From Clostridium cylindrosporum DSM 605 (GTDB lineage: Bacteria > Bacillota > Clostridia > Clostridiales > Caloramatoraceae): DNA of 64,000 nt. Positions 35,235-51,257 of this stretch are shown piece after piece. The notes beneath the pieces are model-generated. The model was not told the DNA's origin. It did not search any database and saw only the letters and a list, made by a program, of their open reading frames with translations. How positions within the stretch are numbered: the stretch's first letter is position 1; the number at the start of each line of letters is the position of its first letter. The DNA lies in the NCBI RefSeq assembly GCF_001047375.1, contig NZ_LFVU01000024.1, forward strand, positions 186,001 through 250,000. Direction: 5' to 3'. The position numbers were made by a program, and so were the translations under genes.

Positions 35235-35663
35235 TTATTTTATCTTACTTAACATCTTTGTAAGTGAAATTTTAATTTCCTCGATTTCTGTTTCAGTAAA
35301 TTCTTCAAATATTCTATCAAAGCCCTCTGTCATTTTATCCTTACACTTAAGAGCAAATTCATATCCCTTATCTGACAACATAATATATGTATTTCTTTTA
35401 TCGCTACCTATTTTGTACTTCTTAACGTATCCTGCTGCCTCGAGTCTTGAGACTATTCCTGAAATAGTTCCTTTACTAAGGCTCATTTCAGTACATATAT
35501 CACTTATAGTCATCTCTTTATTATGTCCTATTAGCTTGATTATGATTATTTGCTGATGTGTAAGTCCATTTCCCTTAAGGCTATCTGCGATTATGTTTGT
35601 TGTTTTTGAGTATACTTCACGAATTAGCATCGCTATTTGAAAAGAATCTACCTTCTTGTCCAT
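35235..35663 (-). CDS. MarR family transcriptional regulator
   Basis: 142 residues with the MarR winged helix: LTHQQIIIIKLIGHN (about 34-48), TISDICTEMSLSKGTISGIVSRLEAAGYV (about 53-81, recognition helix) and the wing SDKRNTYIMLSDKGYE. It is the second gene of a two-gene unit, 13 bases after an HsmA-type membrane protein. A perfect 14-base-arm palindrome overlaps the promoter of that unit (36088-36119), so it most likely represses its own operon. The ligand is unknown. GGAGG lies before the ATG. Confidence 0.93.
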   Translation of the reverse strand: MDKKVDSFQIAMLIREVYSKTTNIIADSLKGNGLTHQQIIIIKLIGHNKEMTISDICTEMSLSKGTISGIVSRLEAAGYVKKYKIGSDKRNTYIMLSDKGYEFALKCKDKMTEGFDRIFEEFTETEIEEIKISLTKMLSKIK

Positions 35664-35676
35664 TTTACTCCTCCGA

Positions 35677-36072
35677 TTAATGTCCCATACCTATAACCAT
35701 ACCTACAAAATATGGGATTAACCATATAAGCCATACTACTATGCTAAACTTATGAAAGAATTTCTTTTTCTTATCGTCATTTTTAAAAATTACCATTGTA
35801 GCCCAAAGTGCATGAAATAGCATAAGTGCTATGGCAATTACCCCTGTTATACCGTGTATATTTCCAGTAAGACTAGTAGTTAATTCTAGGTTGGACTTTG
35901 CTATTTTTCCCATTGTTATAGTTCCTATTGTATCACAAATAAGCCCTATCCAAAATATAAGTACATGAGACTTTTTAAGCGTCCCTGACTTTCTTTCACC
36001 AAAAACGCCAACAGTATAAAATACTAGCGCCAAGCTTATTGTTATAGTTGCAAATAGTAAAATTGAACTCAT
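35677..36072 (-). CDS. HsmA family (TIGR03987) membrane protein
   Basis: 131 residues, four membrane helices. The FWIGLICDTIGTITMGKI block (about 40-57) and GNIHGITGVIAIALMLFHALWA (about 70-91, with two His) match the small TIGR03987/HsmA family, linked in other bacteria to heme-related or drug stress responses. The paired His inside membrane helices would suit heme or metal binding; this is inference. It is the first gene of a MarR-controlled pair with a clear promoter and operator. GAGGTG precedes the ATG. Confidence 0.82.
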   Translation of the reverse strand: MSSILLFATITISLALVFYTVGVFGERKSGTLKKSHVLIFWIGLICDTIGTITMGKIAKSNLELTTSLTGNIHGITGVIAIALMLFHALWATMVIFKNDDKKKKFFHKFSIVVWLIWLIPYFVGMVIGMGH

Positions 36073-36213: not shown

Positions 36214-37218
36214 TTAACATATTCTTGGTAGAACCTCTCCACTCATCATAGGAAGTCTTTTTATTCCACCAAGGGATGTTTTTACATTCACTTCCCCACT
36301 TATCCTCTCTACAACCTCACCTATGATACTACTATCAACTCCTAGACTGGATTGCTTCATAATGCCTAGAAGATTATCTGCATCATCACCATGCACTATA
36401 ACTATTACTTTCCCTTCATTAGCTACATATAATGGGTCAATTCCTAGGAGTCTACTCATAGCACTTACATTTTTCTTAACTGGTATAGTATCTTCATCTA
36501 TCAGCATACTTTTACCTGCAAGTGATGCTATTTCATTAAGAGACTGGGCTACTCCTCCACGAGTCGGGTCTCTCATAATTCTAATTCTAGCATTGGAATC
36601 TAAAATTCTACTAATCAAGGGATATAAGCTACTACAATCACTTTCTATGCTTCCAAGTGTACTAAGGCCTTCTCTTTCATTCATAATACACATACCATGA
36701 TCGCCAATACTACCACTTAGTATTATCTTATCACCTACTTCTATGCTATTTGGAGATAAGCTATGTCTACTATCTAAAACTCCGATTCCTGTAGTATTTA
36801 TGTATACTCTATGTCCCCTTCCCCTTTCAACTATCTTGGTATCACCTGCTACAATGCTGACATCATTCTTTCTTGCTTCGTTTCCCATAGACTTTGCTAT
36901 TTTATCAAGGGAATCAAGGGAAAAGCCTTCTTCTATGATAAATCCGGCTGTTATGTATAGTGGCTTTGCACAGCTAACAGCTAAGTCATTTATAGTTCCA
37001 CATATGCTAAGCTTTCCTATGTCTCCCCCGGTGAAAAATATAGGGTCTACAACGAAACTATCTGTAGTTAATGCTATATCCCCATGTACTTTTCCAATTA
37101 TCGATGAATCACTTTGCTTAAGAAGTATAGGATTATTAAAGTGCTTATAAAATATACTTTCTATAAGATGTGAACTTTCCTTTCCTCCACTTCCATGGGC
37201 AATACTTACTACATCCAT
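36214..37218 (-). CDS. hypE: Hydrogenase maturation factor HypE
   Basis: 334 residues, the usual size. HypE dehydrates the carbamoyl group passed on by HypF to a thiocyanate on its C-terminal Cys, the source of the CN ligands of the [NiFe] site. The protein ends P-R-I-C, the required carrier tail. AHGSGGKES at the N-terminus and the PurM-like ATP-binding blocks (DIALTTDSFVVDP, SVVAGDTKIVERG as IVAGDTK) are present. It is the last gene of the operon, nine bases after hypD, with AGGAGG before the ATG and a terminator behind it. Confidence 0.96.
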   Translation of the reverse strand: MDVVSIAHGSGGKESSHLIESIFYKHFNNPILLKQSDSSIIGKVHGDIALTTDSFVVDPIFFTGGDIGKLSICGTINDLAVSCAKPLYITAGFIIEEGFSLDSLDKIAKSMGNEARKNDVSIVAGDTKIVERGRGHRVYINTTGIGVLDSRHSLSPNSIEVGDKIILSGSIGDHGMCIMNEREGLSTLGSIESDCSSLYPLISRILDSNARIRIMRDPTRGGVAQSLNEIASLAGKSMLIDEDTIPVKKNVSAMSRLLGIDPLYVANEGKVIVIVHGDDADNLLGIMKQSSLGVDSSIIGEVVERISGEVNVKTSLGGIKRLPMMSGEVLPRIC

Positions 37219-37227
37219 GTTTTCCTC

Positions 37228-38304
37228 CTAAATATACGAATATTCTATATTACAAGCCCCTTCACTTGATACCATACAAGGTCCAAGTGGACTTAATGGT
37301 GTACACTTTCTCTTAAAATATATACAATCCCTCGGGGACCTTCTTCCTGTTATTATGTACTTACAGCTACATTTATCATCATCTTCTATAACCTTATCAT
37401 CTATATAAAATCTATGTCTAGCATCGTATATTTTATAATCATGCCTTAGTTCATATCCTGAATTCTCAATTCTTCCTATACCTCTCCAAAGGCTACTAGA
37501 TGATAAAAACACTTCACTTATCAAATCCTTAGCTAAAATATTTCCCTCTTCACTTACTGCCCTACTATAAAGATTATTACACCTATAATCCTTATTTATA
37601 ATTAAATTAATTAAGGAATATATTCCTCCTAAAATATCAATTGCTTCAAACCCACACATGGTCATTGGAGTATTACTTTCCCTCGCTAAGTTATCAAATA
37701 CTTTATTTCCTACTATAGTTCCTACATGCCCTGGACAAATAAAACCATCTATACTAGTTTCATTATCAAGTATTAGGGATTTAAGGGCATTTGGCATTGT
37801 TTTAAGATAGTTTAATATAGAAAAGTTTTTTATATTACTTTCCCTAGCTTTCTTTAATGTAAGTGCAATACTAGGCGCTGTTGTTTCAAATCCAACACAT
37901 ATAAGCACAACTTCACTTTTTATATTATTCTTAGCTATGTTCAATGCTTCAAGTGGAGAGTGAACTATCCTTATATCATATCCTCTACTTCTAGAATTAC
38001 TAAGTGCATCTCTACTTCCAGGAACTCTTAGAACATCTGAAAATGTAGCTAAAATAACATTTTCAGATGTTGCTACTTCTATTCCCAGATCTATATATTC
38101 TCTAGGAGTTACACATATAGGACATCCTGGCCCAGATATAAGCTTTATATTACTTGGAAGAATAGATGGTATTCCATAGTTATAAATACTTCTAGTATGG
38201 GTTCCACATATCTCCATTATTTTTATATCATGCTTTAACATAGATGAAGCTTTATGTATTGAATTTATAATCTTTTTACCTAAATCAATATTATTAAAGT
38301 CCAT
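37228..38304 (-). CDS. hypD: Hydrogenase maturation factor HypD
   Basis: About 358 residues. HypD carries a [4Fe-4S] cluster and, with HypC, assembles the Fe(CN)2CO unit. All signature blocks are present: EICGTHT (about 31-37), GPGCPICVTP (about 59-68), GFETTAPS, and FICPGHVGTIVG (about 190-201). Cys-rich C-terminal ligands (C-S-C, R-D-C, C-T-P, C-N-I) follow. Start is ATG 38304 after GAGG; hypC ends two bases earlier, so translation is coupled. Confidence 0.96.
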   Translation of the reverse strand: MDFNNIDLGKKIINSIHKASSMLKHDIKIMEICGTHTRSIYNYGIPSILPSNIKLISGPGCPICVTPREYIDLGIEVATSENVILATFSDVLRVPGSRDALSNSRSRGYDIRIVHSPLEALNIAKNNIKSEVVLICVGFETTAPSIALTLKKARESNIKNFSILNYLKTMPNALKSLILDNETSIDGFICPGHVGTIVGNKVFDNLARESNTPMTMCGFEAIDILGGIYSLINLIINKDYRCNNLYSRAVSEEGNILAKDLISEVFLSSSSLWRGIGRIENSGYELRHDYKIYDARHRFYIDDKVIEDDDKCSCKYIITGRRSPRDCIYFKRKCTPLSPLGPCMVSSEGACNIEYSYI

Positions 38305-38305
38305 A

Positions 38306-38530
38306 TTAATCCTCACTTAAACTTGCTATTTCCTTAAGAAGTTCTAAATTTTCCCTTGCACCTTCTTCACTAATCTTTTCTATAGCACATCCTACATGAA
38401 CAAGTACATAGTCTCCTATTTGTAGATTTTCTATTAGTGATGTATTAACTGTCATCTCAACTCCCTCAAAATCAACTATAGACTCCCTTTGATAAACCTT
38501 AACAACCATTCCTGGAACCGCAACACACAT
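38306..38530 (-). CDS. hypC: Hydrogenase maturation chaperone HypC
   Basis: 74 residues. HypC begins M-C-V-A-V-P-G, and the Cys directly after Met is essential for holding the Fe(CN)2CO group and binding the large subunit. This fixes the start at 38530 (GAGGTG precedes it) rather than an upstream in-frame ATG at 38548. The Y-V-L-V-H-V-G-C-A-I block (about 42-51), conserved in the family, is present. It overlaps neither neighbour and lies between hypF and hypD. Confidence 0.96.
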   Translation of the reverse strand: MCVAVPGMVVKVYQRESIVDFEGVEMTVNTSLIENLQIGDYVLVHVGCAIEKISEEGARENLELLKEIASLSED

Positions 38531-38540
38531 ATAATCACCT

Positions 38541-40775
38541 CTATGCATCCTTAATTAATTCATTTGCAATAAATATCTGTCCAAGAGATATACCACTATC
38601 ATTACAAGGAACAATTCTATGAGTTAGTACCTTAAAACCATTATTTTTAAGTGAATTATAAATCCCCTCTAACAAAAGGCCATTTTGAAATACTCCTCCA
38701 CTTAGTGCAACTGTATTTATACTGCTTTCATTCCTTAACCTTATGCATATATAAGCTACGAAACCAATAATGGTATTGTGAAGTTTTAATGCTATGTCCT
38801 CATATGATATAGATAGTTTCATGTCCTTAAGTATCCCCCTTATTATACCTGTAGTATCAATAGTAAAAGGCTCGGCACTTACTTTATAATCATATATCCC
38901 ACTGTACTTTCCACCTTTAGCTAACTCCTCTAGATAAACTGCCGCCTCACCCTCATAGCTAATATCACCTTTAAATCCTAATATAGAAGCAATTCCATCA
39001 AACAGCCTTCCTATACTTGATGTATGGGGACAATTAATCTTCTTATCTATCATTTTAAGAATTACATCTACATCCTCTTCATCTTTGAAAACAGAGTTTA
39101 GAAAATCTCTAGATTTAGTAGCTGTATAAATTAATCCTATCCCTATCTTCCAAGGTGATAGAGTTGCCCCATCTCCTCCTGGAAGTACAAAGGGATTTAT
39201 ATATCCCTTTCTTTCATAACTTTTTACTGTACATATAAGAAATTCTCCACCAAGAAGTTCTCCATCCTCACCATAACCTAGCCCATCAAATGCAATTCCA
39301 ATAACACTATTAAAGTAACCATTCTCAGCCATACACGAAACTATATGTGCATGATGATGATAGATTTGCAATTTATCTATACTTGATTCACTTAAAATAG
39401 GGTTACTTTTCATATATAGGTGAAGGTCATAGGCAAGAAGCTTCTCATCAATGTCATATATATTCTTAAAGTTATCAAAAACCTTTTTATATCTTTTCTC
39501 TGTAGCTAAAGAATCTATATCTCCTATATAGGGAGAAGTAAACACATAATTGTCCTTACTTAATGATATTGTGTTTTTCATAAGTGCACCAAAGGATATA
39601 ATCCCATCTGTCACTTCTTTCTTTATGGATAGTGGATAGTAGCCTCTTCCTGGTCTTATAACTCTTACAGCTTCCCCTTGAACCTTTACTATAGAGTCAT
39701 CTACTCCTATGTGTATATCTCTATTGTGAAGTAGATAGTAATCCGCTATTTCTTGCACTTTATCTAGTTCATGATCCTCATATATAATAGGTTCACTTCC
39801 TCTATTAGCACTTGTAAATACAAGGGATTCTATACCATCTTGAAATAACATAACATGAAGAGGAGTATATGGAAGAACTACCCCTAGAGTTGAAAGATTA
39901 GATATACTATTCATATCACCTTTATTAACCTTCTCAAGTATTACAATAGGCTTAACACTTCCACTTAGTGTATCCTCCTCAAGTCTTGATATATAGCAGT
40001 ATTTTCTTACTATATCTATATTTTTCATCATAATACCTAGAGGCTTTCTAGCACGCCTCTTCCATCCTCTAAGTTTTTCAACTACTTTCTCTGAGGTTAT
40101 ACATATTAAGTTATATCCAGTTAGCCCCTTAACACACAATATATTTCCCTTTCTTAAAAGCTCTACTATACTTTTGATCTCGTCATTACACTTTACAATT
40201 TCTCCATTTCTATCTAGCAACTTAAGTGAAGGACCACATTCTCTACAACATATAGGCTGTGAATGAAATCTTCTATCTATTAGATTCTCATACTCTTCTT
40301 TGCATTTACTACACATACTAAAATCATTCATAGTGGTACCTTCCCTATCGTAGGGAAGGGATTTTGTTATTGAGTATCTAGGTCCACAGTTTGTACAGTT
40401 TGTAAATGGATACCTATATCTTCTACCAACTTCCTCTATATCTCTTAGACAATTATCACAGGTAGCTATATCAGGAAGCATTGGAACTGTCCCCTTATCC
40501 CTTTGACTTTCTATAACCTGAAATCTCTTATGTCCAATTACCTCAAGATTCAATACTGATATATCATCAATTCTACTAAGTAAAGGTGCCCTATTATTTA
40601 GATCCTTAAGAAATATATCTATGCTATTCTTCTCTCCCTCTACCTCTATATAAACTCCATTAGAATCGTTTCTCACAAAGCCCTTTAGTTTATTTTCTGT
40701 GGCTATTTTATATACAAATGGTCTAAATCCTACTCCTTGAACATTTCCCTTTACTTTAACAAGCTTTCTTATCAT
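38541..40775 (-). CDS. hypF: Carbamoyltransferase HypF
   Basis: 744 residues, full length. Domains in order: acylphosphatase-like (1-90, KVKGNVQGVGFRPFVYK), two zinc-finger repeats (CDNC, CTNC, CSKC, CREC; about 108-185), YrdC/Sua5-like nucleotide-binding domain (about 200-380) and Kae1-like C-terminal domain with HHHAHIVSCMAENG (about 476-489). It activates carbamoyl phosphate and transfers the group to HypE. Its ATG overlaps the hypB stop by four bases (ATGA). Confidence 0.96.
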   Translation of the reverse strand: MIRKLVKVKGNVQGVGFRPFVYKIATENKLKGFVRNDSNGVYIEVEGEKNSIDIFLKDLNNRAPLLSRIDDISVLNLEVIGHKRFQVIESQRDKGTVPMLPDIATCDNCLRDIEEVGRRYRYPFTNCTNCGPRYSITKSLPYDREGTTMNDFSMCSKCKEEYENLIDRRFHSQPICCRECGPSLKLLDRNGEIVKCNDEIKSIVELLRKGNILCVKGLTGYNLICITSEKVVEKLRGWKRRARKPLGIMMKNIDIVRKYCYISRLEEDTLSGSVKPIVILEKVNKGDMNSISNLSTLGVVLPYTPLHVMLFQDGIESLVFTSANRGSEPIIYEDHELDKVQEIADYYLLHNRDIHIGVDDSIVKVQGEAVRVIRPGRGYYPLSIKKEVTDGIISFGALMKNTISLSKDNYVFTSPYIGDIDSLATEKRYKKVFDNFKNIYDIDEKLLAYDLHLYMKSNPILSESSIDKLQIYHHHAHIVSCMAENGYFNSVIGIAFDGLGYGEDGELLGGEFLICTVKSYERKGYINPFVLPGGDGATLSPWKIGIGLIYTATKSRDFLNSVFKDEEDVDVILKMIDKKINCPHTSSIGRLFDGIASILGFKGDISYEGEAAVYLEELAKGGKYSGIYDYKVSAEPFTIDTTGIIRGILKDMKLSISYEDIALKLHNTIIGFVAYICIRLRNESSINTVALSGGVFQNGLLLEGIYNSLKNNGFKVLTHRIVPCNDSGISLGQIFIANELIKDA

Positions 40776-41434
40776 TTTCCCCTCTTATTATTTATTTCAC
40801 TTATAATAAGATTAGAGAGTTCCTCTATTCCCTTATTTTCTCTACATGAAACATTGATTACCTTTATATCTCTATTTATAGACTTTACATCACTATAAAA
40901 CTCATCTAGATTAAAGTCTGTATACTCTATTAGGTCTGTTTTATTAAGTACAACTATATCTGCACTTTTGAACATTGCTGGATACTTTAAAGGTTTGTCA
41001 TTTCCCTCAGTTGTACTTATAACAACAATTCTCATATCTTCGCTTAAATCATAGGATGCAGGACAAACAAGGTTCCCTACGTTTTCTATAACAAGTAGGT
41101 CCAAAGCCTCTATATTCATTTCATCTACTGCCCTTTCAATCATTGAAGCGTCTAGATGACATCCCCCACCTGTATTCACTTGAACAACCTCTATGTTATG
41201 TGCCTCTATCCTCTGGGCGTCACGGGTAGTGTATAAGTCTCCTTCAATAACACCTACAGTTATTCTATCTCTTAATCTTTCAATTAGATGTTCAAGTACA
41301 GTTGTTTTCCCAGCTCCTGGTGAACCTAGTAGGTTAATCGTATATATTTTCTTTTCATCTAGATAATTTTTAAGCTTTCTCGCTACATCATCATTACTCT
41401 CTAAGATATTCTTTTTTAAGGTTAACTGCTTCAC
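40772..41434 (-). CDS. hypB: Hydrogenase nickel incorporation GTPase HypB
   Basis: 220 residues. Walker A GSPGAGKTTVLE (about 37-48), switch/Walker B GVIEGDLYTTRDA and LLVIENVGNLVCP, and the guanine-specific NKTDL (about 164-168) are present. The metal site G-G-G-C-H-L-D (about 98-104) is present. It lacks the His-rich stretch and the N-terminal CxxCGC motif of some HypB forms, so nickel storage is unlikely. It acts with HypA, whose gene ends two bases before, in placing Ni in the large subunit. Confidence 0.96.
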   Translation of the reverse strand: MKQLTLKKNILESNDDVARKLKNYLDEKKIYTINLLGSPGAGKTTVLEHLIERLRDRITVGVIEGDLYTTRDAQRIEAHNIEVVQVNTGGGCHLDASMIERAVDEMNIEALDLLVIENVGNLVCPASYDLSEDMRIVVISTTEGNDKPLKYPAMFKSADIVVLNKTDLIEYTDFNLDEFYSDVKSINRDIKVINVSCRENKGIEELSNLIISEINNKRGK

Positions 41435-41436
41435 CT

Positions 41437-41778
41437 CTATTCCCCCTCTATTCTATATAGTAGTAGTTCCTCTCCTGATATAATGTTACTGCTATACTCA
41501 TTGCATGTTGGACACTGTCTTTCAGTAAACTTTATATCAAATTCTCTTTGGCACTTATCACAAAACGCCCTTGCATTAACATTCTCAATTTCAAGAACGG
41601 CATCAGAGCATATTGTATTCTTCTTTATAGATTGAAATGCAAAATTCAAAGCAGAGTTTAGTGTACATGTAAACTCTCCTATTTTAAGAATTACCTTCGT
41701 TACCTTCTTAATGTTATTTTCCCTAGCTATATCCTCAACCATCTCTATAACACTACATATCATTGATACCTCATGCAT
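41437..41778 (-). CDS. hypA: Hydrogenase nickel incorporation protein HypA
   Basis: 113 residues, full length. The N-terminus M-H-E-V-S gives His2, the nickel ligand. The zinc site is formed by two CxxC pairs, CDKC (about 73-76) and CPTC (about 89-92). HypA delivers Ni to the large subunit together with HypB. It starts right after the endopeptidase gene, one base away. Confidence 0.96.
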   Translation of the reverse strand: MHEVSMICSVIEMVEDIARENNIKKVTKVILKIGEFTCTLNSALNFAFQSIKKNTICSDAVLEIENVNARAFCDKCQREFDIKFTERQCPTCNEYSSNIISGEELLLYRIEGE

Positions 41779-41779
41779 T

Positions 41780-42235
41780 TTATCTCTCCTTTAAAATAAC
41801 TTTAATAGCCTTACAAACTTCCCTACATATAAAATCAAAATTCTCCTGAAGCGTAGATGATAGTTCTATACCAAAGTCTAGATTATCTATCTCAACCCCT
41901 ATAAGATAGCCTTTTATATGTCTATATTCACTTCTTAATACCTTTAACAAACTTTCCTCATGCTGAGTAAATGCCCCATCTAAGAAGTCATCACACTCCT
42001 CAAAGGAAAGCTTAGTTACTATTCCAGGTGCTATATTAAAATACGTACTGTCAATTATAATGACCATATCCCCATCTTCTATTTGGTCTAGACAATACAT
42101 ATAATCCGTCTCCCCAACTATTACCTTCACATTATCTCCAAGGTCCTTCCCTTTCTCAATAATACTTTCTACAATTCTAACGCCTATAGCATCATCTGAT
42201 AGTAGGATATTACCTATGCCAAAAATCTTAATCAT
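41780..42235 (-). CDS. [NiFe]-hydrogenase maturation endopeptidase
   Basis: 151 residues of the HyaD/HybD/HycI family. It cuts the C-terminal peptide of the large subunit after Ni insertion. The N-terminal GIGNILLSDDAIG (about 6-18) has the conserved acidic residue, VIIIDSTYF (about 58-66) supplies the second Asp and TQHEESLL (about 90-97) the His; these coordinate the Ni of the substrate. It overlaps the large-subunit stop by four bases. Confidence 0.94.
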   Translation of the reverse strand: MIKIFGIGNILLSDDAIGVRIVESIIEKGKDLGDNVKVIVGETDYMYCLDQIEDGDMVIIIDSTYFNIAPGIVTKLSFEECDDFLDGAFTQHEESLLKVLRSEYRHIKGYLIGVEIDNLDFGIELSSTLQENFDFICREVCKAIKVILKER

Positions 42236-43665
42236 ACTAAATTAATTTCAAATGGGGAGTACCTATCACTTGTAATATGTGCTGCACAGTTAAGGCATGG
42301 GTCAAAACTCCTAACTATTCTTCCTATCTCCACTGGATGCTGAACATTGTTAATAGTAGTCCCTATAAGAGCTTGTTCCACTGTTCCTAGAACACCCTTT
42401 TCATCTGTTGGTCCTAAATTCCAAGTAGATGGTGGTATGAGAGTATAGTTAGCTATTTTTCCTCCTGATATGTTAACCCAGTGACCAAGTGTGCCCCTTG
42501 AAGCATCTGTGAGCCCTACTCCAAATGCCTTCTCTGGTACTTTCCACTTTTCTTGATATGGTGGCCCTAGCTTTACAACTGCTAAAAGAGATTCTATACA
42601 TTCACATATTTTTCTAGCTTCCAGCGCCCTTGCTATAATTCTATCCATTACAGAGACACCCCTTGTGTAAATCCCTGATAAAATCATTCTTGCAAGTGGT
42701 CCTCCCTCCATAGCATGTCCTTTATACCTTGCAGCTGCAACCCAGCTATATGCACCTTCTTTATATGCATTTGGACTTGGAGGAGGAGCTGTTCCAGGTT
42801 TACTTGTTTGATTACCTGTTTCAGGGATTAGCCAAGAATTCTTAATGCTTTCTGTAATATTGTTTCTATCAAATTCCTCTCTTATATACTGATTAGTGCT
42901 AGATTTTAATATAACTCCAGGTGATACATACTTAACTGGAAACTTAGGATTATCATATAATCCATAACTCATAAAATTCTGAGGTCCAGCCCCCATTGTG
43001 TAATAATCTTTGTAGTAGCTAGCTATAATATTAATGTCCTCAAGTAAGTTCCCCTCTATAAACTCTTTGATTTCCCTAACTGTATATAAACACGCCTGCA
43101 TTTGCTGCACATTCATATCTATAGTTGTGCCACCTACAAAGATCCCATGACCATGTGGTACTTTACCAATAATTGTAGCCGCAGCTCTATGTGCATCTCG
43201 ACTATATTTAACAGCCTTAACATAATCTCCATTTAGCTTTGCTGTAATATTAATAGGCAATCTATAATCTGCATCATTTGGTGATATTGTTTTATAAAGA
43301 GGGCTTACATTATCTATTTGAACAAAGTCAGGAAGAGTAAAAAAGTATATCTGCCTTAAATGATTTTGAAGAAACTCAAAGCCATTTGCAATCTCACGTA
43401 CTACAACTCCATTAAAATCCGGTGCCACATTAAGTGCATTCTCAAGGGCAAGTGTTGCGGCTAGTGTATGGTGGGTTGAACATATTCCACATACTCTAGG
43501 GGATAGCCATATAGCATCAAGCGGATCTCTTCCTTGAAACATTTTCTCAAAACCTCTAAACTGTCCTCCACTACTTTTGGCACTAACTACCTTATTTCCC
43601 TCAACCTCTACCTCAATCTTCAAAAGTCCACTTACCCTAGTTACAGGGTCAATTACAATTTTCAT
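42232..43665 (-). CDS. [NiFe]-hydrogenase large subunit
   Basis: 477 residues. The catalytic subunit that binds the Ni-Fe(CN)2CO site. Ligand Cys: R-V-C-G-I-C near residues 57-62 (Cys59, Cys62) and D-P-C-L-N-C-A-A-H at 455-463 (Cys457, Cys460). A 14-residue tail after His463 (starting I-T-S-D) is the peptide removed by the endopeptidase of the next gene. It lies three bases downstream of the small subunit. The operon encodes no membrane cytochrome, NAD-reducing or ferredoxin-type partner, so the electron acceptor is unknown. Confidence 0.96.
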   Translation of the reverse strand: MKIVIDPVTRVSGLLKIEVEVEGNKVVSAKSSGGQFRGFEKMFQGRDPLDAIWLSPRVCGICSTHHTLAATLALENALNVAPDFNGVVVREIANGFEFLQNHLRQIYFFTLPDFVQIDNVSPLYKTISPNDADYRLPINITAKLNGDYVKAVKYSRDAHRAAATIIGKVPHGHGIFVGGTTIDMNVQQMQACLYTVREIKEFIEGNLLEDINIIASYYKDYYTMGAGPQNFMSYGLYDNPKFPVKYVSPGVILKSSTNQYIREEFDRNNITESIKNSWLIPETGNQTSKPGTAPPPSPNAYKEGAYSWVAAARYKGHAMEGGPLARMILSGIYTRGVSVMDRIIARALEARKICECIESLLAVVKLGPPYQEKWKVPEKAFGVGLTDASRGTLGHWVNISGGKIANYTLIPPSTWNLGPTDEKGVLGTVEQALIGTTINNVQHPVEIGRIVRSFDPCLNCAAHITSDRYSPFEINLV

Positions 43666-43667
43666 AT

Positions 43668-44558
43668 CTATACCCCTCCATAATGAACAAATGGCTCGTT
43701 TTTATCTGGGAAATCAGGTCCTGTACAGCCTATACATGTTGTATTTACCCCAACAGGCCAAAACTCTGTTTGATTCCATCTAACTCTAGGACAATCCGCC
43801 TTAGTTTTAGGTCCTCTGCACCCTAGCATAAACATACACTCAGAATCTCCTAGCTTCTGGGCAAATATTCCCTTATCAAAGAATGGTCTTCTTTCACATA
43901 GGTCATGAATAGTCTTTCCATAATATGCAATTGGCCTTCCATCACTATCAAGCTGAGGTATTCCAAATGAAACTAGATATCCTATAGTTCCAAGGCTCCA
44001 AATAGGGTTCGTTGGACATCCAGGCAATTTTATAACATCATTTCTTCCTAAAAATTCAGGAATACTTACAGCCTCAGTTACATTAGGTCTAGCTGCTGTA
44101 GGTCCTCCATAGCACGCACATGTTCCTATAGCTATAATGTGTTTTGCTTTTTTTGCAAGCATTGCTGTTATTTCAGCGGCTGTTATTTCCTTCCCCTTAT
44201 ATGTAGCAACCCTTGTACATAGTCCATTATCTTTTTTAGGAATTGCACCACAAATCATAAATATAAAATCTGTATCCATTAAAGCCATGACCCTCTCGTA
44301 GGCTACTTCTCCCTCATCTCCAGATATAGTTCCTAAAAATGTTAGGTTAACTAAATTCTTAAGAAAATATAGAACATCAGGGCTTTCTGCATCTAATAGA
44401 GATATAATCTGGCCAAAGCATCCTGATGTTTCAAGCCATATAGCATTAGGCTTTTTTACTTTTCCTAAATTTATATCATTAATTGCTCTTTTTATATAAG
44501 CATTTGCAAGTCCATCTGGATTACTATTAAGTCTAGGGCATGAAAAGTCATTATCCAT
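43668..44558 (-). CDS. [NiFe]-hydrogenase small subunit
   Basis: 296 residues. It carries the iron-sulfur chain. Proximal-cluster Cys appear in LETSGCFGQ, GTCACYGG and PGCPTNP; the distal His/Cys set in HDLCERRP, with further Cys in MLGCRGPKTKADCP; and the medial cluster in TCIGCTGPDFPD. There is no Tat signal peptide (no RRxFxK) and no C-terminal membrane helix, so the enzyme is most likely cytoplasmic. GGAGGGAG precedes the ATG at 44558. It is the first hydrogenase structural gene, 72 bases after a 230-residue protein of unknown function. Confidence 0.95.
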   Translation of the reverse strand: MDNDFSCPRLNSNPDGLANAYIKRAINDINLGKVKKPNAIWLETSGCFGQIISLLDAESPDVLYFLKNLVNLTFLGTISGDEGEVAYERVMALMDTDFIFMICGAIPKKDNGLCTRVATYKGKEITAAEITAMLAKKAKHIIAIGTCACYGGPTAARPNVTEAVSIPEFLGRNDVIKLPGCPTNPIWSLGTIGYLVSFGIPQLDSDGRPIAYYGKTIHDLCERRPFFDKGIFAQKLGDSECMFMLGCRGPKTKADCPRVRWNQTEFWPVGVNTTCIGCTGPDFPDKNEPFVHYGGV

Positions 44559-44589: not shown

Positions 44590-44620
44590 AAACCCCCTTA
44601 AGGTAATAACACCTTAAGGA
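44590..44620 (-). terminator. Terminator or attenuator ahead of the hydrogenase genes
   Basis: CCTTAAGGT (44596-44604) pairs perfectly with ACCTTAAGG (44611-44619), with outer CC/GG pairs. On the minus strand GGGTTTTC follows. It lies 11 bases after the stop of the 230-residue protein and 32 bases before the small subunit ATG, with no room for a normal promoter downstream, so it probably sets the ratio between the two rather than ending transcription. Confidence 0.65.
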
Positions 44621-44630
44621 GGTAAAATTC

Positions 44631-45323
44631 TTAGCACCCAAACATAGCCTTATGCCTAATATAATTTCTCTTAAACCTCTCAATATGTTCATTAAGAAGT
44701 TCATCTAAAGTTTTACCCTTTATCTTTTGAGTTTTAGCTACACTTAAACATGGAATATTATCAGCAAGCATCATGAAAATAGTCCTAAACCCATCAACAA
44801 ATAAATCCATTGTCTGCTCAGGAGATAAATCCCTTGTCATATCTACAACTTTTAAGAAGCCAACTTTAAAATCTTCTAAAATACTATCCATCTCTATTTT
44901 AAGCTTATCAGAACTAATAGGTCTTTTTGGAGGAGTAGAATACTTATCACACTGGAAGGTATTATAGTGAACTCTATATACATCCTTAAATTTATTAGTA
45001 TGAAAAAGTAATATATCATCAAGGCCTAACCCTTGAACTCCTTCAGTTCTAATCTTTTTCATACATGGAATATTATCAACACTTAATTCAATAAATCCTC
45101 GAAGAAGCTGTATATGCATATCAAGTAACTGCTCATCTGTTACATAATCCTTATACCCTTTAGCTCTAGTAAATAAATATCCAATCATTTTCTCAAGACT
45201 TAATTTAATATCCTCTAGCTCATTTTGACTAACTTCCCTATACTGAGATAAATTAATTTCAAACTCTTCTATATCTATATAAGCAGCTGGAACAATTAAC
45301 TTTTTTGGAATACTATAAAACAT
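44631..45323 (-). CDS. Unknown protein with duplicated DNIPC-His-His motif, upstream of hydrogenase
   Basis: 230 residues, soluble, mostly helical. It is built from two copies offset by exactly 105 residues. Each has D-N-I-P-C (83-87 and 188-192), then His after 21 residues (His108, His213) and another after 11 (His119, His224), with similar contexts (GLGLDDILLFHTNKFKDVY and GKTLDELLNEHIERFKRNY). The exactly conserved Cys/His spacing suggests a metal or cofactor site in each half. I do not recognise the family. Being first in the hydrogenase transcription unit, it could sense, store or supply a metal, or pass on electrons. AAGGAG precedes the ATG. Confidence 0.8.
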   Translation of the reverse strand: MFYSIPKKLIVPAAYIDIEEFEINLSQYREVSQNELEDIKLSLEKMIGYLFTRAKGYKDYVTDEQLLDMHIQLLRGFIELSVDNIPCMKKIRTEGVQGLGLDDILLFHTNKFKDVYRVHYNTFQCDKYSTPPKRPISSDKLKIEMDSILEDFKVGFLKVVDMTRDLSPEQTMDLFVDGFRTIFMMLADNIPCLSVAKTQKIKGKTLDELLNEHIERFKRNYIRHKAMFGC

Positions 45324-45480
45324 CCTATACTCCTTTTACATAATGACTTACATAATTATCATATTCATTCAAATTATATTATGTGAAAGAAGAGCCCTTA
45401 GATGTTACTTAGTTTTATGTTATATTAATAGTATTTAGTAATATGTTTACAGTTTTAAAAAGAGAATTGGGGGTTATTAA

Positions 45481-46721: not shown

Positions 46722-48815
46722 TTAATTATATATATCTGAAAACTCAATGCTAATTCTCTCTACACTACTTTGATACATTGAATTTTCAAGTCTCTCATCC
46801 TCTATATCAGTAATATAAGCTGGAAGCTCTATGATAAATTCACTTCCCTCACCGAATTTACTATTAACAGTTATTGTACCATTATGCATATCTACAAGTG
46901 ACTTTACAAGTGATAAACCTATTCCACTTCCTTCTTTATTTCTAGCAAGTGTTTTGTCTACTTGTCCAAATCTATCAAATATTAGGTTTAACTTATCCTC
47001 TGGAATACCTATACCTGTATCTTTAACCGATATTTGAACCTTGTCACCTTTATCATATAAACTTACTAGAATTTCCCCGTCACTACTAACAAACTTTATA
47101 GCATTAGATAGAAGATTAAGTATTATTCTCTCAATTTTATCAGCATCAAAGGCCATTAACTTTTCCTCTATGTCAGTATCAAATATCATCTCTATACCCT
47201 TATTTCCCGCATAATCGGCTACGGATAAAGTAATATTCTCAACTACATTTACAATATCCAGGTTCTTTAGGCTAAGCTTTAAATATCCAGAGTCAACCTT
47301 TGATTGGTCAATTAAATTATTAACGAGCCTTAATAATCTATAACAGTTTTGCTTCATAGTCTTTAAATATTTACTTAAGTTTTCTTGAAATTCATTTGGA
47401 AGTTCCACTTTCTTAGGTAAATTTAATATTTGTATAGCTCCTAAAATAACATTTAAAGGAGTTTTTAGCTCATGGGATATATTTGAAAAGAACTCCATAA
47501 GTACTCTATTATACTCCTTTGTTACCTCAATATCCTTCTTTAGCGACTTTACTTCCTTGATATAACTTATATCTCTTACTATAGTTAAAATTGCTGGCTT
47601 ACCCTTAAATGAAAAGTAAGCTGATCCAGACTCTATATCTAAAACTTCACCATCTGCCCGTATAATCTTCATTTGAACAAATGGTAAACTACATTTCTCA
47701 TTATAAATCTCCATCGTACGATGACTGACTAATTCTTTATTATCAGTGTGCATAAAGCTAGATGTTGACATACCGATCAAATCATCTGCACTCTCAACTC
47801 CTAAAAGCTTTGCAGCTCCTTCATTAGCAAAAATATACCTTCCATCTCTATGTACCATAATAGCATCTCTTGAATACTCAACAAGCATTTCATAGCACTT
47901 TTCATTACTAATAAGAACTTCCTCTACATCTCTTCGTTTAAAAGACTCTCTTTTTAACATTTCATTTATAAATTCTAATTCCATCTCTTTAGACTTTAGG
48001 TTATTACCCATGACGAAATAGGGCCTTTTCAAACCTATTTCAACTATACCTTTATACATATAGTAGAAAGAAATAACCATCAAAATATGTCCAGTAGTAT
48101 TAAACCAACTATGTATACTTTTAGAGAAAGCTAGAAGTACTTCTGATATCATACTAATAATACATGTAAGCATTATATACTTAAGTTTAAGATATTCTCT
48201 CTTCCTTCTAACCTTAAAACAAAGAATCGCTGTTAAAATATATATACTAGATATAATAACATCACTTATAATCTTAAAAACTGTTACTCCCTTTCCCACA
48301 ACATAACAGCTTGGAAATATCCTAAAATAATATATAGAAAGAATCAAAGAAATAGCGATTAGTGAATAGATAGAGAAAATTGTGCTAAATTTAAATTTTT
48401 TGATAGGCTTATATAGTACTATAACTGAAACTAACATTGTAATTGCCCCAATGTATCTTCCTACAATCCAAGACTGTGTATGTACATCTGGTGATATATA
48501 TCTTATTATTCCAATTCCTTTAAATGAAGCTGCATGAAATAAATTTACTATTGCTGACCAAAAGAAACCAGAACCTAAAGTTAAAAAATAATTATTACTT
48601 GATATGTCATATGTATTTACACACATTATAAATATGAATAACGCAATTACTGAAACGAAAAGCTCCACTATACTATGAAATAGTAAGTAATTCTCTATAC
48701 TTATAATGACTAACCCAACTATGAAACAAGCTAAAATCCCTTGGCTAAATACTGTCTTACTACTTATAGTAATCGTACTTTTTATATTTTCCCTAGATGT
48801 TACTATAGAATTCAT
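46722..48815 (-). CDS. MASE3-PAS sensor histidine kinase, paralog 1
   Basis: 697 residues. About eight membrane helices (1-260) form a MASE3-type sensor region (SNNYFLTLGSGFFWSAIVNLFH). A PAS domain follows (about 300-420, EYSRDAIMVHRDGRYIFANEGA), then HisKA with the phospho-acceptor His448 in FFSNISHELKTPLN. The HATPase domain has ILNLLSNAIKF, DTGIGIPEDKL and GSGIGLSLVKS. It autophosphorylates in response to an unknown membrane or PAS signal and should pass phosphate to a regulator encoded elsewhere. A paralog lies directly upstream. Such orphan kinases in spore formers may feed Spo0A; this is inference. Confidence 0.92.
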   Translation of the reverse strand: MNSIVTSRENIKSTITISSKTVFSQGILACFIVGLVIISIENYLLFHSIVELFVSVIALFIFIMCVNTYDISSNNYFLTLGSGFFWSAIVNLFHAASFKGIGIIRYISPDVHTQSWIVGRYIGAITMLVSVIVLYKPIKKFKFSTIFSIYSLIAISLILSIYYFRIFPSCYVVGKGVTVFKIISDVIISSIYILTAILCFKVRRKREYLKLKYIMLTCIISMISEVLLAFSKSIHSWFNTTGHILMVISFYYMYKGIVEIGLKRPYFVMGNNLKSKEMELEFINEMLKRESFKRRDVEEVLISNEKCYEMLVEYSRDAIMVHRDGRYIFANEGAAKLLGVESADDLIGMSTSSFMHTDNKELVSHRTMEIYNEKCSLPFVQMKIIRADGEVLDIESGSAYFSFKGKPAILTIVRDISYIKEVKSLKKDIEVTKEYNRVLMEFFSNISHELKTPLNVILGAIQILNLPKKVELPNEFQENLSKYLKTMKQNCYRLLRLVNNLIDQSKVDSGYLKLSLKNLDIVNVVENITLSVADYAGNKGIEMIFDTDIEEKLMAFDADKIERIILNLLSNAIKFVSSDGEILVSLYDKGDKVQISVKDTGIGIPEDKLNLIFDRFGQVDKTLARNKEGSGIGLSLVKSLVDMHNGTITVNSKFGEGSEFIIELPAYITDIEDERLENSMYQSSVERISIEFSDIYN

Positions 48816-49163: not shown

Positions 49164-51257
49164 TTAACTATATATATCTGAAAACTCTATACTAATTCTC
49201 TCTACACTACTTTGGTACATTGAATTTTCTAGTCCCTTATCCTCTATATCAGTAATGTAAACAGGAAATTCTATTATAAATTCACTTCCCTCACCAAATT
49301 TACTGTTAACAGTAATTGTCCCATTATGCATATCTACAAGTGACCTTACAAGTGAAAGGCCTATTCCGCTTCCCTCCTTATTTCTAGCAAGGGTCTTATC
49401 TACTTGTCCAAATCTATCAAATATTAAATTTAGCTTATCCTCTGGAATGCCTATACCAGTATCTTTAACAGAAATTGCAATAGCATCACCTTTATCATAT
49501 AGGTTTACTATTATTTTACCTCCATTAGAGATAAATTTTATTGAATTAGATAAAAGATTAAGTATTATTCTTTCAATTTTATCTGCATCAAATGCCATTG
49601 TTTTTTCCTCTGTATCCGTATCAAAGATCACTTCAATTCCCTTATCATATGCATAATCTGCAACAGACAGTGTAATATTTTCAACTACACTTACTATGTC
49701 TAGGTTTTTCAAGTTAAGTTTTAGATATCCTGAATCAAGCTTTGATTGATCTATTAGATTATTTACAAGTCTTAATAATCTATAACAATTCTGTTTCATA
49801 GTTTTTAAATATCTACTTAACTTGGCCTCAAATTCATCTGGAAGCTTACTTTTACTAGGTAACCCAAGTATTTGTATTGCCCCAAGTATAACATTTAGTG
49901 GTGTTTTTAATTCATGGGATATATTTGAAAAGAATTCCATAAGAACCCTATTATATTCCTTTGTTACTTCTATATCTTTCTTCAAAGATTTTACTTCTTT
50001 TATATGACCTATATCCCTTATAATAGTTAAAATGCTAGGTTCACCTTTATATGCAAAATATGATGATCCTGCTTCAACATCTCTAACTTCTCCACTCGCT
50101 TGTAAAAGCTTCATTTGAGCAAATGGCATGCTACACTTTTTATTATAAATCTCTCTAATCCGGTGACCTGCTAAATCTCTAGTTTCTGTAGGTGTAAAAT
50201 CTGATACAGCCATACCAATTAAATCATCGGAATCATTAACTTCAAAAAGCTGTGCGGCACCATCATTAGCAAAAACATATTTATCATTTCTATGTACTAA
50301 AATAGCATCCCTTGAATACTTAACAAGCATTTCATAGCATTTCTCATTACTAATAAGAATTTCCTCAACGCCTTTACGCTTACTTGATTCCACTGTTAGC
50401 ATTTCATTTATAAACTGTAATTCCATATTTTTAGACCTTAAATTATTATCCATACTTAAATAAGGTCTTTTCAAACCTACTTCAACTATACCTTTATACA
50501 TATAGTAACAAGCAACAGCCTTTAGAATATGTCCTGTTGCGCTTAGCCAATGACTAACACTAATATATATACTGAAAAACAATTCTGATATAACACTAAT
50601 AAAGCATGATATCATAATATACTTAAGTCTTGTATCCTTTTGCCCTTTTCTCATTTTATAACAAAGAATAGCAGTTACAAAAAATATGCATGATATTATA
50701 ATTTCACTATAAACTTTAAAATTAGTTAAAGTATTTCTACCGGTAAAGCACTGTGGGAATATCCTAAAATAATATATAGACAATATTAAGAAAACAGAAA
50801 TTAGTGAGTATACTCCGAAAACTATACCAAAATTTAATCTCTTCATAGGTTTATTTACTAATACAACAGAAATAAGCATTGTAAATGACTCAATATATCT
50901 TGCTAAAATCCAGAACTGTGTAGGTATATCTGAAGATGTGTAACTTAATATTCCTACTCCTGGAAACACTATAATATGTAACAAATCCAAAATTGCTACC
51001 CAAAAGTATCCAGAACTTAGAACTAAAAAGTAATTATTATTTGAGATGTCATATGTGTTTATACACATGAGAAATACAAATAAGGCTATTATTGAACTAA
51101 AAAGCTCAGATGTGCTATGGAATAACAAGTAATTTTGTGTACTTAATATCCCTAAAGCAATTACAAAACAAATTATAAACCCCTGGTCAAATATCCTCTT
51201 CCGCTTAATGTTAGCAATATCCTTTAACCTTTCCTTAGATGTTACGATAGAAATCAT
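49164..51257 (-). CDS. MASE3-PAS sensor histidine kinase, paralog 2
   Basis: 697 residues, the same length and domain order as paralog 1. The kinase half is nearly identical from the linker KEVKSLKKDIEVTKEYNR through His448 to the last residues, while the sensor half and PAS differ at many positions. Codon third positions have diverged, so this is an older tandem duplication kept under selection in the kinase core. The common core implies a shared regulator, the different sensor different signals. GGGAGGG precedes the ATG at 51257. Confidence 0.92.
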   Translation of the reverse strand: MISIVTSKERLKDIANIKRKRIFDQGFIICFVIALGILSTQNYLLFHSTSELFSSIIALFVFLMCINTYDISNNNYFLVLSSGYFWVAILDLLHIIVFPGVGILSYTSSDIPTQFWILARYIESFTMLISVVLVNKPMKRLNFGIVFGVYSLISVFLILSIYYFRIFPQCFTGRNTLTNFKVYSEIIISCIFFVTAILCYKMRKGQKDTRLKYIMISCFISVISELFFSIYISVSHWLSATGHILKAVACYYMYKGIVEVGLKRPYLSMDNNLRSKNMELQFINEMLTVESSKRKGVEEILISNEKCYEMLVKYSRDAILVHRNDKYVFANDGAAQLFEVNDSDDLIGMAVSDFTPTETRDLAGHRIREIYNKKCSMPFAQMKLLQASGEVRDVEAGSSYFAYKGEPSILTIIRDIGHIKEVKSLKKDIEVTKEYNRVLMEFFSNISHELKTPLNVILGAIQILGLPSKSKLPDEFEAKLSRYLKTMKQNCYRLLRLVNNLIDQSKLDSGYLKLNLKNLDIVSVVENITLSVADYAYDKGIEVIFDTDTEEKTMAFDADKIERIILNLLSNSIKFISNGGKIIVNLYDKGDAIAISVKDTGIGIPEDKLNLIFDRFGQVDKTLARNKEGSGIGLSLVRSLVDMHNGTITVNSKFGEGSEFIIEFPVYITDIEDKGLENSMYQSSVERISIEFSDIYS

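Follow-up and report, generated by a model that had tools for sequence, protein, structure and literature searches.

The [NiFe] hydrogenase cluster of Clostridium cylindrosporum DSM 605 is headed by a gene for a 230-residue protein with two three-helix repeats, in which every Cys and His residue lies on a regular grid of ligand positions. The retention of this grid in an alignment made blind to Cys and His is the firmest result of our analysis. We consider it very probable that the protein is a soluble helical-bundle metalloprotein carrying a metal site. A role as the non-heme electron partner of the hydrogenase, in the operon place held in many related clusters by a cytochrome-b5-like protein, is a tentative further reading. 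The stretch of DNA analyzed, hereafter the window, comprises 64,000 nucleotides.

The gene opens with an ATG and is the first of ten in the cluster, being followed by the genes of the small subunit, the large subunit, a protease, hypA, hypB, hypF, hypC, hypD, and hypE (Table 1). The hypA gene was identified by its Pfam match (PF01155, 5e-31), while the other hyp genes were named from sequence and are matched as such in other clusters. Between the end of the open reading frame (ORF) and the ATG of the small subunit at 44558 lie 72 bases containing a strong hairpin. An earlier sequence-only reading had described the gene as standing at the head of the operon, 72 bases before the small subunit with a hairpin in between, and it was right on all three points. 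As a promoter-like site (10 of 12 matches) precedes the ORF and our consensus scan gave no such same-strand match in the stretch from the ORF to the small subunit, transcription of the hydrogenase probably runs through the ORF. The hairpin (MFE of the spacer -24.4 kcal/mol, z -3.09) may act as attenuator, stability element, or partial terminator. Together with Cys/His sites that could sense metal or oxidants, its strength would suit a metal or redox sensor regulating the operon in concert with the hairpin. This we regard as very unlikely, given that the protein showed neither a DNA- nor an RNA-binding domain, that the corresponding spacer of C. celatum holds no hairpin of comparable strength (z -1.17), and that the window yielded no Rfam match.

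Table 1. Coordinates of the hydrogenase cluster, the ligand elements of its first gene, and neighboring features within the window.
Feature	Position	Strand	Remarks
Promoter-like site	45358..45387	-	upstream of the ORF; consensus match only
ORF, 230 aa	44631..45323	-	two 3-helix repeats and Cys/His grid; heads the hydrogenase cluster
Element A1, residues 70-87	45063..45116	-	H70, S81, C87
Element B1, residues 108-125	44949..45002	-	H108, H119, C125
Element A2, residues 175-192	44748..44801	-	F175, L186, C192
Element B2, residues 213-230	44634..44687	-	H213, H224, C230
Hairpin, 14 bp	44592..44623	-	between ORF and small subunit
[NiFe] hydrogenase small subunit	43668..44558	-	
[NiFe] hydrogenase large subunit	42232..43665	-	both active-site Cys motifs present
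Hydrogenase maturation protease	41780..42235	-	
hypA, hypB, hypF, hypC, hypD, hypE	36214..41778	-	in that order
HsmA-family membrane protein, then MarR-like gene	35235..36072	-	just behind hypE
697-residue protein	46722..48815	-	histidine-kinase-like C-terminal part
697-residue protein	49164..51257	-	histidine-kinase-like C-terminal part

Three further observations concern the cluster and its surroundings. In the small subunit, the first Cys of E-C-T-G-C, the usual proximal-cluster motif of group 1 enzymes, is replaced by Thr. Across 100 clostridial small subunits this position is occupied by Ala, Val, Thr, or Ile in most cases and by Cys in three; a Cys near the N-terminus (C7), present in 73 of the 100, may be the substitute ligand. 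Behind hypE, an HsmA-family membrane protein (TIGR03987, 2.8e-54) is encoded next to a MarR-like gene, resembling, in reversed gene order, the heme-sensing HsmRA pair of C. difficile as described in an excerpt of PMC12670364. Because of this pairing, HsmA was set aside as a candidate membrane anchor of the hydrogenase. Finally, the two adjacent, near-alike 697-residue proteins look like a recent tandem duplication.

The two halves of the ORF product align at an offset of 105 with 29 identities over 125 positions. Their local ungapped score of 107 was reached by none of 500 shuffles, which peaked at 44. The sequence DNIPC occurs at residues 83-87 and 188-192, each time followed by His (+21, +32) and Cys (+38), and the same +11/+17 spacing is found in the preceding helix (H70...C87), making the underlying unit H-x10-H-x5-C on four helices. 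The two exact C-x20-H-x10-H repeats first noticed at this offset are accordingly present in the window protein; the spacing is not absolutely fixed, the second half of the C. celatum protein showing +20 instead of +21 from Cys to His, and the described motif was incomplete, the Cys at +38 and the spacing in the preceding helix having been missed.

Defined by homology together with [H/C]-x10-[H/C]-x5-C on four helices (ligand places 0, +11, and +17 of each), the family is most fully represented by C. senegalense, which carries the motif on each helix and fills 12 of the 12 places; the fullest copies read H-x3-F-x3-F-x2-H-x3-[F/I]-x-C. Written in the order A1 B1 A2 B2, the grid is HHC HHC HHC HHC in C. 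senegalense, YHC HHC HHC HHC in C. ihumii, HSC HHC FLC HHC in the window protein (9 of 12), CHC CHC HLC HCC in C. celatum, and LHC QHC YLC HYC in I. porci. No Cys or His lies off the grid in the window protein (9 residues) or in the C. celatum protein (11 residues). The four grid Cys are kept in all five of these core members, with only two His positions being equally constant. Between the window protein and C. celatum, His is exchanged for Cys at 70, 108, and 224, which is the behavior of metal ligands.

Such a grid could be an artifact of aligning the sequences by their Cys and His. Both residue types were therefore masked in all ten homologs, the sequences were realigned, and grid occupancy was subsequently counted in seven of them. 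The fraction of Cys/His residues falling on the grid amounted to 10 of 11 in C. celatum (hypergeometric p 6e-15), 11 of 15 in C. senegalense (p 4e-15), 10 of 13 in C. ihumii (p 1e-13), 6 of 10 in both I. porci and G041 (p 2e-7 each), 6 of 13 in G093 (p 2e-5), and 2 of 7 in G029 (p 0.03), with the last grid place mostly lost to an end gap. Grid and masking test together support the idea, voiced at the outset, of a Cys/His metal or cofactor site.

Structure prediction from five sequences gave a model of the window protein with a pLDDT of 79.6 and a pTM of 0.74, its first 27 residues being unreliable. Helices are predicted at 33-55, 63-84, 101-122, 138-163, 168-189, and 206-228, and the C. senegalense model shows the same helix order at lower confidence (pLDDT 71.6). 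In the model, the His places of the grid are the 8th and 19th residues of helices 22 or 23 residues long, with the Cys just past the helix ends. Neither Pfam nor NCBIfam nor the PDB provided a match to the window protein. PDB sequence searches with the protein and with a profile brought up no credible relative, the best hit being an ATP synthase subunit at E 0.013, Foldseek matched neither model to a PDB entry at E <= 0.001 and likewise found nothing in BFVD, and the best VIA result had a Z of 5.1 (rmsd 6.0, 93 aligned).

Residues 11 apart on one helix are separated by about 16 angstroms, so that one helix is unable to give both to a single metal. We propose that the four core helices, two in each three-helix repeat of the model, pair in antiparallel fashion, which would gather the ligands into a layer at either end of the bundle. 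The first layer would comprise C87, H108, C192, and H213 (Cys2His2), the second C125, H119, C230, and H224 together with H70, and each might bind a metal or small metal cluster. With two Cys and two His, the first proposed layer would be compatible in ligand count with a Rieske-type 2Cys-2His [2Fe-2S] cluster. Rieske sites are formed by two short loops, C-x-H and C-x2-H, on a beta scaffold; the ligands of the window protein are 6-21 residues apart on helices instead, and the Rieske spacing is absent among all of its Cys and His residues. Rubrerythrin and other ferritin-like di-iron proteins (PF02915) share the helical bundle and metal-type residues in its core, and relatives of the window protein adjoin rubrerythrin genes. 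Di-iron carboxylate sites use Glu/His ligands, in contrast to the Cys/His ligands found here, and the window protein has no PF02915 or other Pfam match.

The family is small and confined to one order in the genomes searched. A homolog was detected in 10 of 225 genomes of the order, a PF14720 small subunit in 111, and both together in 2, namely the window genome and C. celatum (G063), which belong to different families of the order. Searches of the class (2 of 391 genomes, both within the order) and of the phylum (3 of 398, of which two lie beyond the order and are weak, at E 2e-4 and 1e-3, in frames that look unrelated) revealed no convincing member beyond it. Phage and plasmid collections gave no tblastn match at E <= 0.1, and none of 31 pattern matches in viral contigs was a relative. 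A wider profile of ten rows raised the count within the order to 16, the six added genomes being weak (E 1e-4 to 6e-4); four of them have the N-terminus of proteins from a spoVR-rubrerythrin cluster and two lie in long unrelated frames, and we kept to the count of 10. The cluster proteins in question occur in several Clostridium genomes (L159-L162, L165, L166) and combine a constant N-terminus, MFISxPKxFFVP, which is common to the window protein, with a very variable remainder (86 to 354 residues).

In both genomes that combine a homolog with a PF14720 match, the homolog stands directly 5' of the small subunit, at gaps of 72 and 99 bases, so the link to [NiFe] hydrogenase, first seen in the window, was found twice. 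A factor dedicated to the enzyme, as the sequence-only reading had suggested, would be found only with it; the remaining eight homolog-bearing genomes are without a PF14720 match, including those with the fullest grids, C. senegalense and C. ihumii. The co-occurrence check that this reading had put forward thus came out partly against it. In the latter two genomes the neighbors are a chemoreceptor-like and an adenosine-deaminase-like gene, in two others (G029, G041) rubrerythrin and spoVR, and in the remaining four other genes. In the tree of the protein itself, the two hydrogenase-linked members stand apart, with C. celatum joining I. porci (92/93), a topology compatible with either one linkage event or two.

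This distribution bears on two further explanations. A metal store or metallochaperone (for nickel, iron, or zinc) that is co-produced with the hydrogenase and provides or buffers its metals would agree with the many Cys/His ligands and with hypA and hypB in the same cluster. HypA and HypB are themselves hydrogenase-cluster proteins with metal ligands, unlike the window protein in being separately encoded nickel insertion proteins and in sharing no sequence match with it; the HypA profile did not match the protein, nor did other known metal carriers. In C. celatum, the homolog precedes the two structural subunits only, with no hyp genes next to them, and the grid is fullest where PF14720 is absent, making this explanation rather unlikely. 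We also consider it unlikely that the protein is a metal protein related to sporulation or oxidative stress, its adjacency to the hydrogenase being incidental or a matter of stationary-phase co-regulation. Relatives with the N-terminus MFxSxPKxFxxP do follow rubrerythrin in the spoVR-rubrerythrin cluster of several Clostridium genomes, and the [NiFe] genes mbhS and mbhL of C. acetobutylicum are expressed throughout stationary phase according to an excerpt of PMC2530871. Against this explanation, the gene immediately precedes that of the small subunit in two genomes from different families, and much of the grid is lost in the rubrerythrin-linked relatives.

The operon place itself was surveyed in 100 small-subunit regions and the window, the 100 being nearly all of the best-scoring PF14720 matches, with weaker and partly different subunits left out. 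In 37 of the 101 clusters the gene immediately before the small subunit has a cytochrome b5 domain; such a gene follows the protease in 18 and lies nearby otherwise in 6, and 38 clusters contain neither this nor a window-type gene. In 61 hydrogenase-associated cytochrome-b5-like proteins, the heme-ligand-like His residues are kept in 59. The two clusters with a window-type gene in front, those of the window and C. celatum, have no cytochrome b5 in the region, an absence that is not significant at this number (Fisher p 0.15). On the genome level, cytochrome b5 occurs in 3 of 10 genomes with a homolog vs 143 of 215 without (p 0.036), a comparison not independent by descent, on which we place no weight. 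A quick tree of the small subunits (one short row, L142, dropped) unites the window and C. celatum in a clade of eight (SH-aLRT 99), the other six members of which have neither gene; a hidden homolog heading these six clusters was looked for and none was seen. As the next row outside the clade has cytochrome b5 at its head, the latter was probably lost in the clade, with two of the eight now carrying a window-type gene in its place. Two cases are suggestive of a replacement rather than proof of it. The seven clade members besides the window genome come from a different family of the order, which suggests movement of the operon between lineages.

Like the window protein, the cytochrome-b5-like protein (PF00173) is small, soluble, and equipped with conserved ligand-type residues, and it is encoded in the same position. 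It differs from the all-helical, Cys-rich repeat of the window protein, in which Pfam detects no Cyt-b5 domain, and descent from the 61 cytochrome-b5-like proteins or their N-terminal extension is unsupported (hhalign probability 0.5%). A cytochrome-b5-like gene of the hydrogenase-associated type is found elsewhere in the window genome (L167:3843-4406, G000:C26), beside a LysM-domain-like gene. The window protein could alternatively be a true cytochrome replacing cytochrome b5, its core His binding b-type heme at two levels of the bundle. A His arrangement of i and i+11 in a core stripe is similar to that of di-heme helical bundles, aromatics stand between the His residues, the gene takes the operon place of a heme protein, and an HsmA-type heme-binding protein is encoded behind hypE. 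Since the Cys positions are more constant than the His positions, three His are turned into Cys in C. celatum, and no ferrochelatase match was obtained in the window genome, we deem this explanation decidedly improbable. The lack of a ferrochelatase match would itself favor a non-heme partner.

The preferred reading of the protein as a non-heme electron partner gains support from the cytochrome-b5-like gene filling the same operon place in 37 clusters; for the electron-transfer role proposed at the outset this is circumstantial backing, the redox role itself being conjectural. In this place, the protein would take up electrons from the clusters of the small subunit. Several findings stand against it: the eight homolog-bearing genomes without PF14720, the cytochrome-b5-like gene elsewhere in the window genome, the separation of the two hydrogenase-linked members in the protein tree, the Fisher test, the distance between i and i+11 ligands, and the six sister clusters with neither gene, according to which a partner need not be encoded there. 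In its most specific form, the reading envisages an all-helical redox carrier whose two Cys/His sites are pseudo-symmetric, each a mixed-ligand iron-sulfur cluster or a binuclear metal site. Having taken over from a heme protein as electron partner of a soluble [NiFe] hydrogenase of group 1 type, this carrier would have made the enzyme independent of heme in a bacterium that has no ferrochelatase match; in this entirety we judge the reading quite unlikely.

Searches of the literature on hypothetical genes upstream in clostridial [NiFe] operons, and on cytochrome b5 with hydrogenase, gave no description of the protein at the level of titles and abstracts, by which we do not claim its absence from print. 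A survey of eight acetogenic Clostridium genomes (PMC9431212) reports group 1a enzymes without Tat signals, three of which adjoin a cytochrome b5 gene. As cytochrome b5 thus accompanies only some of the soluble group 1 [NiFe] hydrogenases of clostridia that lack Tat signals, a protein that occupies this operon slot and bears a clear metal-ligand grid offers a candidate electron partner open to direct testing. Beyond the hydrogenase, the family grades from members with 12 filled ligand positions to members with only a few, a natural gradation suited to study the rise and decay of metal sites in helical bundles.
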